Below, in pieces: positions 54,889 to 58,808 of a stretch of 64,000 nt of DNA (position 1 is its first letter; each line of letters begins with the position of its first letter). The notes under the pieces are model-generated. The model was not told the origin of the DNA, made no database searches, and was given only the letters and a program-made list of their open reading frames with translations. The translations under genes and the position numbers were made by a program. The stretch is from Bacteroidota bacterium (GTDB taxonomy: Bacteria; Bacteroidota; Bacteroidia; NS11-12g; UBA955): NCBI GenBank assembly GCA_027488835.1, contig JAIYAW010000009.1:434001-498000 (forward strand), written 5' to 3'.

Positions 54889-56085
54889 TCAATATAAAAA
54901 ACCAAATAACCAAAGTGGGATTTTTTGATTAATCCCGTACTCAATTTCATCGGCAGCAATAAATGCATTTTCTATACCATCAATTTGGTGTTTGGTTTTG
55001 CCTTTTCCTCCTATTTCAAATGTGTACTTTTTGTCTACCAAAAAATCACCCTTGTGAGAGTACAATAAATTATGCCTAAAACCCACTTGATTCGCAAAAA
55101 ATGTCTCTCTCACATTCCCAATATTCACATTACTTGGCGATAAAATTTGCATCAAGTTGGTGTTTTCTAAATATATTTTTTGTGGCTTTTGTAATTTACT
55201 GATCCCATTAGCTTCCTTAAAAAGATTATTGGTTAATCTTACTTCTTGAAAGTAATGCAAATACGACAAAATTGTTGACCTATTTATTGTTAATTTCTCT
55301 CCCAATTTGCTAATGTTTGGAGTAAACGGTACCGATGCAGAAATCACAGATAATAACTCTTTCAGTTTAAATACATATCCCGACTCAATTCCCCTCATCA
55401 ATGGCAATTCTATTTCCAAAATCATATTCACCACTTCCGTTAACTTTATTTCATACAGTTCTTTATCCTCTCTATAAAAAGGATAATAGCCATAGTCTAA
55501 ATATTTTGAAAAATACTGAAATGGTTTTGTTTTGTGACCAATTTCTTGAGCAATTTCAAAGTGTTTTTCTAAAATTTCATTGAGGGATACAATTCTAAAG
55601 TCAATTTTTGTTTCAATACTTAAAAACTCACGAAATGAAAATCCCTGCATCTCATAAATAACGGCCCTCCTACTTAAATCAGCCCTTGCATTTAATATTT
55701 CCAAAGCGGAAGAACCTGTAAATACAACTTTTAAATCTGGATAATCATCATAGGCATTTTTCAATTCTTGAGCCCAATTGGGATATTTATGCACTTCATC
55801 TAAAAATAAAAACTTCCCCCCTTGTTTATAAAAATCTTCAATTAACTCAGACAATGAATGCGAAGAAAACCAAAATGAATCCAAACTTACATAAAGCGTT
55901 TGTGCAATTTGATTAGACAAATGCAATTTTATATACTGCAGCAACAAAGTTGTTTTCCCTACACCCCTAGCGCCTTTGATCCCAACCAATTGCGCCTGCC
56001 ATGGAATTTCAGCCATTGCAGATCGGGTAAAATCTAAAGACACATTTGATAATTTTCGTAAAAAACGATTATACAATTCTACCAT
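54889..56085 (-). CDS. AAA ATPase with DUF4143 (AAA_14 family)
   Basis: A 398-residue ATP-binding protein. Walker A GARGVGKTTLL (~38-48), Walker B KFLFLDEVHKYPNWAQ, an Arg-finger region TGSSALEILNARADLSRR, then a winged-helix/DUF4143 C-terminal part (~200-398, with LGEKLTINRSTILSYLHYFQ and a final FEIGGKGKTKHQIDG nuclease-like segment). This large family is common in bacteria and archaea; function is uncertain, though the C-terminal domain resembles a restriction-endonuclease-like fold. The gene has an unusual repeat-filled promoter (see 56086-56173). Confidence 0.82.
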   Translation of the reverse strand: MVELYNRFLRKLSNVSLDFTRSAMAEIPWQAQLVGIKGARGVGKTTLLLQYIKLHLSNQIAQTLYVSLDSFWFSSHSLSELIEDFYKQGGKFLFLDEVHKYPNWAQELKNAYDDYPDLKVVFTGSSALEILNARADLSRRAVIYEMQGFSFREFLSIETKIDFRIVSLNEILEKHFEIAQEIGHKTKPFQYFSKYLDYGYYPFYREDKELYEIKLTEVVNMILEIELPLMRGIESGYVFKLKELLSVISASVPFTPNISKLGEKLTINRSTILSYLHYFQEVRLTNNLFKEANGISKLQKPQKIYLENTNLMQILSPSNVNIGNVRETFFANQVGFRHNLLYSHKGDFLVDKKYTFEIGGKGKTKHQIDGIENAFIAADEIEYGINQKIPLWLFGFLY

Positions 56086-56173
56086 AATGCTTAATTAATT
56101 AAACAAAATTAATATATTTTGCTTAATAAAACAAACAAAATCCGTAAATTTTGTTTAACGCAACAAACAAAAT
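56086..56173 (-). repeat. Three tandem ~32-bp palindromic repeats in the promoter of the AAA ATPase gene
   Basis: On the minus strand three copies start at 56173, 56141 and 56109. Each begins ATTTTGTTT and contains TTAAnCAAAAT or its remnant, so each is itself an imperfect palindrome. The first two are full (32 bp each), the last is cut short by the ATG. A -33 TTTG (56135-56132) and -7 TAATTTTG (56111-56104), 20 bp apart, lie within them, so they overlap the promoter and look like operators. Confidence 0.75.
56104..56135 (-). promoter_or_regulatory. Promoter of the AAA ATPase gene
   Basis: TTTG (56135-56132), 20 bp, TAATTTTG (56111-56104), ending 18 nt before the ATG. The elements are built into the tandem repeats. 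Confidence 0.55.
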
Positions 56174-58049: not shown

Positions 58050-58250
58050 TTAGTCTTTTTTTACTTCAACCTTATAAAAATCTTCAGCCATGATTTTAAC
58101 TATCTTACCATCACGCATAACTACCAAAGGAGAATTCTTTTGTTTCTTAAATTCAAGAAGTTTTTGAAACGAGATTTCTAACCCCTTCAATACTTTAATT
58201 GAAAAATCATCAAGGACTTTGGGATCATTATTTATATTTTCTGATTTCAT
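58050..58250 (-). CDS. Small protein partner of the zeta-toxin-like kinase, possible antitoxin
   Basis: A 66-residue charged protein with no membrane segment: a helical part (KVLDDFSIKVLKGLEISFQK) and then a short strand pair (SPLVVMRDGKIVKIMAED). Its start overlaps the end of the zeta-like gene by 23 bp, so it is co-translated after it. Position and size suggest an antitoxin or accessory protein, though it is not similar to the classical epsilon or PezA antitoxins as far as I can see. It is second in the operon, while most antitoxins come first. Confidence 0.55.
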   Translation of the reverse strand: MKSENINNDPKVLDDFSIKVLKGLEISFQKLLEFKKQKNSPLVVMRDGKIVKIMAEDFYKVEVKKD

Positions 58251-58794
58251 TGTATTTTATTGGATTAATAATGAATTCCTTTTCGCTTTTTTGAAATACC
58301 AATTCAGGGTCTCCTGAACTATTATCAAAAATAAGAGCTTTATTTACAATTGGCAAATAAATCTCAAATAAATTCTTAATTCCTCTTAAATATCTTCTTT
58401 TAATAACTTCTTCATTTATGTTGTGACCACCTTCTGACACTCGTATTCCTACTCGCTCAATTGCCAAATCAATGCTATTTAACCAAAAAAACAACAAACT
58501 AACTCGAAATCCAGCTTGTTGAGCAACAATTACTTTCTGTCTATAACTTTTGGTAGACAATGTTGTTTCGAAAGCAAAACTCTCTCCTTTTTCTATAAGT
58601 TCATTTATTCTAAACAACATGATTCTGCCCGATTCAATGGCTACATTTTCCGGCTGAAATGGAGATAACCCTTTGGCAATCTCGTCTGCATTTACAAATT
58701 CCTTACAATTTATTATCTCAGGTAAAATAGTAAATGATGCAGTTGTTTTACCCGCACCATTGCAACCAGCAATTATGTATAAGACTTTTTCCAA
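58228..58794 (-). CDS. Zeta-toxin-like P-loop kinase
   Basis: A 188-residue protein with the zeta-toxin fold: P-loop GCNGAGKTTAS, the conserved acidic FVNADEIAKGLSPF, the FAFETTLSTKSY segment, and the Arg-rich lid RVGIRVSEGGHNINEEVIKRR. Family members phosphorylate UDP-N-acetylglucosamine or similar small molecules; whether this one is toxic is not known. No ATG is near the start, so I use a TTG at 58794, 6 nt after a TAACTTTG box (58808-58801). A TTG at 58803 sits inside that box and is a poorer choice. Confidence 0.8.
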   Translation of the reverse strand: MEKVLYIIAGCNGAGKTTASFTILPEIINCKEFVNADEIAKGLSPFQPENVAIESGRIMLFRINELIEKGESFAFETTLSTKSYRQKVIVAQQAGFRVSLLFFWLNSIDLAIERVGIRVSEGGHNINEEVIKRRYLRGIKNLFEIYLPIVNKALIFDNSSGDPELVFQKSEKEFIINPIKYNEIRKYK

Positions 58795-58800
58795 GCAAAA

Positions 58801-58808
58801 CAAAGTTA
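58801..58808 (-). promoter_or_regulatory. -7 box (TAACTTTG) of the zeta-toxin-like operon
   Basis: Matches TAnnTTTG on the minus strand, 6 nt before the TTG start chosen here. Confidence 0.4.

Follow-up and report, generated by a model that had tools for sequence, protein, structure and literature searches.

The minus strand of the window (the whole stretch of Bacteroidota DNA that was analysed, 64 kb) carries the gene of a 398-residue ATPase, preceded by a tandem array of inverted repeats. The features of the locus, in window coordinates, are the following.

54889..56085, minus strand: ATPase gene, AAA_14 / PDC-S01 family, 398 aa (AAA_14 match, 3.7e-32; best PDC-S01 match, 1.4e-26)
54892..55179, minus strand: predicted C-terminal PD-(D/E)XK-nuclease-like part, residues ~303-398 (D347, E357, GGK)
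55222..55383, minus strand: winged helix-turn-helix, residues 235-288, from the AlphaFold model; the fold matches span it
55243..55281, minus strand: recognition helix, residues 269-281, from the AlphaFold model and co-variation
55621..55992, minus strand: AAA domain, residues 32-155 (Walker A GARGVGKT, Walker B LFLDE)
56084..56109, minus strand: operator unit 3 (proximal), 2 mismatches, overlapping the -7 element; letters ATTTTGTTTAATTAATTAAGCATTAT
56104..56111, minus strand: -7 element TAATTTTG, beginning 26 nt 5′ of the ATG
56116..56141, minus strand: operator unit 2, holding the -33 TTTG; letters ATTTTGTTTGTTTTATTAAGCAAAAT
56132..56135, minus strand: -33 TTTG, putative Bacteroidota-type promoter element, from sequence
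56148..56173, minus strand: operator unit 1 (distal), inverted repeat ATTTTGTTT..TTAAACAAAAT; letters ATTTTGTTTGTTGCGTTAAACAAAAT

The three imperfect inverted repeats are 26 bp long and separated by 6-bp gaps, which gives a period of 32 bp (56084-56173). Units 1 and 2 match ATTTTGTTT(N6)TTAAnCAAAAT exactly, unit 3 has two mismatches, and this proximal unit reaches into the ATG (56085-56083). The initial annotation had described tandem palindromic repeats with a 32-bp period running into the start codon, and its description was borne out by the sequence, by Tandem Repeats Finder and by shuffling. Tandem Repeats Finder gave a period of 32 with 2.7 copies and 79% matches, and the score of 95 was the highest of its 30 rows for the window. 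The direct-repeat score of the array at period 32 was 33.4, attained in 0 of 60 shuffles, for which the maximum averaged 9.4. With up to 3 mismatches allowed, the unit pattern matched eight times in the window against 0.25 expected, six of these matches being the array itself on both strands, and none of 100 shuffles attained eight.

The genome search that had been proposed as a check covered 2.49 Mb: both exact unit matches, and the sole tandem set when up to 3 mismatches were allowed, belong to the array. Overall, the unit matched 17+20 times, six of these matches being the array, and the reversed control pattern 16+12 times. At up to 3 mismatches, no further copy of the array was found on the downstream side of the gene, in the rest of the window or in the rest of the genome, and ends of a mobile element were rejected on this ground. 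A CRISPR array was also ruled out, as the units are imperfect palindromes with 6-bp gaps rather than near-identical repeats with spacers of repeat length. Elsewhere in the window, a gene for a 191-aa Zeta_toxin-like P-loop kinase (58228-58803, minus strand; 3.3e-8) is overlapped and followed by a 66-aa frame (58050-58250).

TTTG at 56135-56132, which we take to be the -33 element of a Bacteroidota-type promoter, lies 20 bp from the -7 TAATTTTG at 56111-56104, and the repeats cover both, as had been claimed. The inverted-repeat structure of the units, the proximal one of which touches the start codon, might suggest hairpins in a leader RNA, acting by attenuation or translational control. We regard leader hairpins as very improbable because no transcript from a -7 element that starts 26 nt before the ATG would contain units 1 and 2, both located further upstream; moreover, the constant 32-33 bp spacing of such arrays suits phasing on the DNA helix, not an RNA hairpin.

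The ATPase and its domains

The product had been labelled a DUF4143 AAA ATPase. The second part of the label stands, with an AAA_14 (PF13173) score of 111.5 bits, well above the Pfam cut-off of 27, but the first does not for this protein, which scores 19.4 bits against DUF4143 (PF13635), below the cut-off of 28.1. DUF4143 is matched by 43 of the 56 members of the window subfamily at E ≤0.001, an E-value criterion rather than the Pfam cut-off. Seven PADLOC PDC-S01 profiles match the window protein, the best at 1.4e-26, and PDC-S01 models match all 56 members of the subfamily alignment. The family is widespread, little understood and thought to be antiviral. The published account of PDC-S01 presents it as a fusion of an ATPase with a PD-(D/E)XK domain and ranks it fourth among the commonest defences across prokaryotes, experimental validation of antiviral activity being pending for most PDCs (PMC12988326). 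A rumen survey met it more often than any other individual locus (PMC13356809).

An AlphaFold model built with 56 aligned sequences (mean pLDDT 92.2, pTM 0.90) shows an AAA domain, a helical linker, a winged helix-turn-helix and a C-terminal domain, in this order. The winged helix-turn-helix comprises helices 235-250, 258-265 and 269-281 and a strand at 285-288. By structure comparison with VIA-align, the nearest structures were the archaeal ATPases 2fna (258 residues, rmsd 3.9, Z 16.0) and 2qen (Z 15.6), followed by CED-4, NLR and Cdc6/Orc proteins. The 2fna match and the secondary structure of the model agree in placing an AAA domain before a winged helix, in the arrangement of SSO1545. The winged helices of NLR proteins and CED-4, which have a similar fold, are not known to act as DNA readers, a point against DNA reading by the window protein. 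The fold search barely covered the C-terminal nuclease-like part, in which D347, E357, G359 and G360 are invariant in 56/56 subfamily members; its assignment as a PD-(D/E)XK nuclease follows that made for PDC-S01 (PMC12988326).

Repeat period across the family

We surveyed AAA_14 genes in Bacteroidota, where 54 of 118 genomes had a match at E 1e-12 and 56 of 395 genomes a close relative at E 1e-60. Loci were added from titled genome records, as the best 80 of 542 confirmed relatives, and these also cover Spirochaetes, Fibrobacter, Lentisphaeria and Chlorobiota. The 172 subfamily genes were reduced to 162 by removing those with identical or short upstream regions, and to 150 for the period test. 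For each gene, this test took the direct-repeat period that scored best within 140 nt upstream, with 658 other genes of the same loci as controls.

Of the 150 close relatives, 99 had a best period of 32-33 bp, as had 39 of the 111 distant family genes, where a uniform distribution predicts 6.5 and 4.8. Among the controls it was no more frequent than chance (32/658, 28.6 expected). When only scores of at least 14 were counted, period 32 was found before 22 close, 23 distant and 3 control genes, and period 33 before 32, 11 and 4, respectively. A smaller, earlier set had given periods of 31-33 bp in 42 of 120 family genes versus 5 of 224 controls. In the 71 of 150 close relatives with an array scoring at least 12, the median gap between the array and the ATG is 9 nt, and the -7 element lies inside the detected repeat in 22 of these 71. 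The best period differed from 32-33 bp in 51 of 150 close relatives, and 79 scored below 12 at both 32 and 33 bp. The 32-33 bp operator array nevertheless looks like a rule of this ATPase family. A minor class with a period of 22-23 bp, about two helical turns, was seen among distant members (L061, L136, L105, L071, L065, L060, L097, L088, L126, L147 and L103).

We then compared the promoters of near relatives and paralogues. Some match at E 0.001 was found in 24 of 57 near genomes, and presence was patchy, with matches at E 1e-40 in 11 of the 108 genomes from the order. L027, the only full-length near orthologue (93% identical), has kept a three-copy 32-bp array with altered letters. A relative from another genus (L029, 58% identical) has two copies of TTAAGCAAAA at 32 bp, and GTGCAAAA recurs at 32 bp before a gene whose product is 44% identical (L031). 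The array is missing from L028 (79% identical), whose gene is truncated at its 5′ end, with the first ATG about 60 residues late (337 of ~398 residues). The comparison of orthologous promoters suggested at the outset thus found the array before two of these genes, L027 and L029, and not before the truncated one.

A second family member in the window genome (L002) is preceded by TTGTCGGAATTyAATAGA, present twice at 32 bp. This pair accounts for the only matches to the motif in the genome at 0 or 1 mismatch; at a loose 3 mismatches, there were 14+12 matches in all, versus 5+2 for the reversed control. In a genome with 13 AAA_14 matches (G219), an array of TTTTGCTTA..TAAGCAAAA precedes the member closest to the window protein, and only one site with 3 mismatches was found elsewhere in that genome. 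In the window, at the paralogue L002 and in G219, each of the genes has specific sites of its own, overlapping its promoter. Across relatives, geometry is conserved more than sequence. G129 holds 17 AAA_14 matches, and three such matches lie inside ~6 kb in G160 as well as in G129. Two relatives (L226 and L245) have one internal stop each.

Arrays of this kind could in principle arise by chance, as generic AT-rich promoter repeats or by shared descent of promoter DNA. The region is AT-rich (promoter GC of 0.31 and 0.35 in the family versus 0.38 in controls), and the genomes are related. However, AT-richness should not give a peak at one period, and the period was kept while the sequence diverged in L027, L029 and L031. 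The shuffles (0/100 and 0/60) and the 658 control genes led us to reject a generic AT-rich repeat, which the initial annotation had named as what would speak against an operator: there is one tandem set in the genome, and control promoters show the 32-33 bp period at chance level. We give this explanation practically no weight.

The family extends beyond Bacteroidota chromosomes, with relatives on plasmids (36 records) and on four viral contigs. Of three archaeal plasmids examined, two have period 32 before the matching gene: the Methanosphaera plasmid carries a clear 32-bp array (score 46) and the Methanomethylovorans plasmid a 32-bp array with a score of 15, while two genes examined on a Thermococcus plasmid had no clear array. 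Thirteen bacterial plasmid loci yielded one period of 32 bp (Persicobacter, itself of the Bacteroidota; score 19.2), one of 34 bp (Arcobacter, 15.8) and 11 loci without a clear 32-33 bp array. Nothing clear was found on an Acinetobacter seifertii plasmid, and a clear 32-33 bp array was absent from all ten further plasmid loci, which include Ruminococcus (14.4 at 40 bp), Calditerrivibrio (a simple repeat of a short unit) and eight loci that did not stand out from shuffles. For two of these eight, Sulfurimonas and Arcobacter cloacae, the best periods were 32 and 33, but the scores were 8.2 and 10.6. On the viral contigs, the best period was 33 in three of four (14.7, 23.6 and 14.4), and in the other (L305) 33 came second (10.9). 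The 32-33 bp pattern is clear in Bacteroidota and in three of the four viral contigs.

Tandem repeats of two or three helical turns resemble iterons, and the arrays might serve as origin- or iteron-like platforms on which the ATPase oligomerizes, in the manner of Orc1/Cdc6 on ORB repeats, for a role outside its own expression, be it replication, partition or the arming of a defence complex. The presence of relatives on plasmids and viral contigs is in keeping with this, as are fold neighbours that include origin-DNA-bound Cdc6/Orc1 (2qby, Foldseek E 1.1e-7; 1w5t, Z 12.7) and oligomerizing STAND proteins. Nevertheless, the units of the window coincide with the -33 and -7 elements, the arrays of close relatives end just before the ATG, and the patchy presence in the order is that of an accessory gene. 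We therefore consider an assembly platform unlikely.

Recognition helix and operator sequence

We slid a 13-residue window along 103 proteins less than 70% identical to one another (from 150; 5253 pairs) and correlated segment identity with upstream similarity, as a partial correlation on the rest of the protein; the helix was not preselected. The nine best windows were centred on residues 265-275, with a peak r of 0.176 at residue 274; in absolute terms these partial correlations are small (0.12-0.18), and the pairs are not independent. None of 200 permutations attained the peak, and the maximum outside residues 255-290 was 0.110. Single columns at residues 269, 268 and 270 ranked second to fourth. 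Column 1 ranked first (0.150), which we attribute to an artefact of start-codon choice. When the -7 element was masked, the peak stayed at 272-274 (0.149), and windows at 232-236, in the first helix of the same domain, reached up to 0.124. In a second set of 77 proteins from outside the window subfamily (114 reduced to 77), the twelve best windows were centred on residues 263-274, and the peak was attained in 0 of 60 permutations. In both protein sets, the recognition helix is thus the best predictor of operator similarity beyond overall identity.

The same trend was seen in pairs of dissimilar proteins. Among pairs less than 55% identical overall, an upstream match of at least 14 was found in 13 of 17 (0.76) with a helix identity of at least 0.8, compared with a share of 0.08-0.16 when helix identity was below 0.6. 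The relation is not a strict one: for pairs less than 45% identical overall with a near-identical helix core (at least 0.85) and the -7 element masked, 6 of 18 shared an upstream match of at least 14 and 12 did not; among the 15 of these 18 pairs that were listed, most of the non-sharing ones involve L032. Alignment of recognition helices with promoters gave many cases in which a shared helix came with a shared half-site and differing helices with differing half-sites. L032 and L059, respectively 40% and 39% identical to the window protein, combine (I/L)NRNTL helices with TTAAGCAAAA sites, and L152 (61% identical to the window protein, whose helix has INRST) has an MHRTTL helix and a TGCACATCATGATATGCA site. 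L111, L096 and L166, which have (I/T)GKN(N/T) helices, carry CGGTTT..AAACCGA or CGGTCT..AGACCGA, and all four of L134, L184, L199 and L203, with (M/L)GRD helices, carry AAGTCA. In a hand tally of the rows listed, at most 158, the extracted half-site contained (A/T)AGCA in 10 of 15 INRNT rows and ACA in 16 of 19 INR(A/S/T)T rows.

We also related residue 270 to individual bases, using the 59 of 103 promoters above a score filter and an automatic half-site extraction, which is rough and overlooks a visible site in several promoters, such as that of L115. G preceded CA in 24 of 34 promoters with N at residue 270, versus 4 of 25 with other residues (Fisher, 5e-5). Residue 270 ranked first among columns for G before CA, but shared descent may lie behind this link, since column 172 came close (6.6e-5). 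Each member appears to have its own matching repeat, and protein and DNA site seem to co-evolve. Autoregulation by the ATPase itself, the initial guess for the array, is supported because the recognition helix co-varies with the operator, and also by the paralogue-specific arrays.

Dedicated regulators are the commonest readers of operators, and a trans-acting regulator encoded elsewhere might bind the array, with the ATPase merely its target. Two plasmid loci carry a small helix-turn-helix gene directly downstream of the ATPase gene (L299, 4433-4645; L314, 3078-3416), and defence genes can be under a separate repressor, as exemplified by RptR (PMC12255303). The search of small frames showed that this helix-turn-helix gene is not conserved in the Bacteroidota set. 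Within flanks that were often only ~1.5-2.5 kb long, the commonest neighbour family of at least 90 aa within 3 kb recurred in 8 of 170 loci, and the commonest small frame (30-100 aa, up to 1.2 kb away) in 7 of 162 genes; the larger groups of small frames came from near relatives, the top one from a single set of them. No other regulator is thus seen travelling with the gene, and we rejected a separate adjacent regulator. The repeats also vary between paralogues, and it is the ATPase's own recognition helix that predicts the operator in two separate protein sets. These points make a separate regulator decidedly improbable.

Some close relatives lie among genes that, on visual inspection of protein starts only, resemble surface-polysaccharide-biosynthesis genes (4 loci with an aminotransferase-like gene, 5 with an acyltransferase-like one). 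A PDC-S01-like gene is found between cas3 and cas4 in a CRISPR locus of an Arcobacter cloacae plasmid (L310, 1501-2760), another relative is flanked by hsdR and a gene for a DNA methyltransferase on a plasmid of Treponema saccharophilum (L313, 1372-2607), and a third lies ~2 kb from a viperin gene (L302).

Proposed mechanism and known systems

The array is probably the operator of a self-regulating ATPase, whose winged helix would read the array in its own promoter, most likely to repress it. We infer physical binding by dimers, cooperativity, repression, and its relief by ATP state or a phage signal. The central winged helix-turn-helix would bind the half-sites TTAAGCAAAA / TTAAACAAAAT of the three inverted-repeat units, and as these lie three helical turns apart, the bound dimers would stand on one face of the promoter. 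They would cover the -33, the -7 and the start-codon region, keeping synthesis of the ATPase-nuclease low until a change in ATP state or a phage signal relieved repression. Unlike recognition helices would go with unlike operators, which would prevent cross-regulation between paralogues of one cell.

Should the ATPase repress itself, its winged helix would serve to read DNA and not merely as an internal STAND hinge, and operators should be recognizable in the promoters of many members. The family would then offer a natural set of helix-operator pairs for deciphering a recognition code, and such pairing would account for genomes with 13 or 17 copies (G219 and G129) without cross-talk. More speculatively, the array might be both operator and sensor platform, a possibility that we find rather doubtful. 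A STAND-like ATPase-nuclease would be parked as a repressor on three phased dimers and released by a change of nucleotide state or by loss of the sites during phage takeover. One protein would then be sensor, repressor and effector, with paralogues kept apart by a helix-to-half-site code (N270 with GCA, others with ACA).

The closest structures, SSO1545 (2fna) and PABY2304 (2qen), both archaeal and which we take to be STAND-type ATPases, share the fold over the AAA domain and winged helix (Z 16.0 and 15.6). Their matches stop at about residue 316, whereas the window protein has an additional nuclease-like C-terminus. Archaeal Orc1/Cdc6 proteins are AAA+ ATPases whose winged helix acts on ORB repeats linked to their own gene, each initiator having its own repeat. 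ORB sites are replication origins, whereas here the array is a promoter and the protein has a nuclease-like domain. Control of a protein's own promoter through tandem or inverted repeats is also known from two kinds of DNA-binding protein, the Rep proteins of iteron plasmids and the partition repressors of the Walker-ATPase type. In contrast with these, the period here is mostly of three turns, the protein family is another one, and there is no conserved replication or partition neighbour.

A search of one open library, largely by title and the start of the abstract, found no published regulation of the AAA_14/DUF4143/COG1373/PDC-S01 family. The likeness to PDC-S01, a single-gene phage defence candidate of PADLOC, lies in the domain build-up (PMC12988326) and in the model matches to all 56 subfamily members. 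The difference is that the available parts of its descriptions give neither a promoter array nor autoregulation (PMC12988326, PMC13356809). RptR-type repressors of defence islands are similar in repressing defence genes. The described targets of RptR are restriction-modification systems (PMC12255303), whereas in the present case the regulator seems to be the defence ATPase itself. Autoregulation as such is of a known kind; what would be new is a putative effector as the reader, the three-turn geometry and the paralogue-specific pairing of protein and site.
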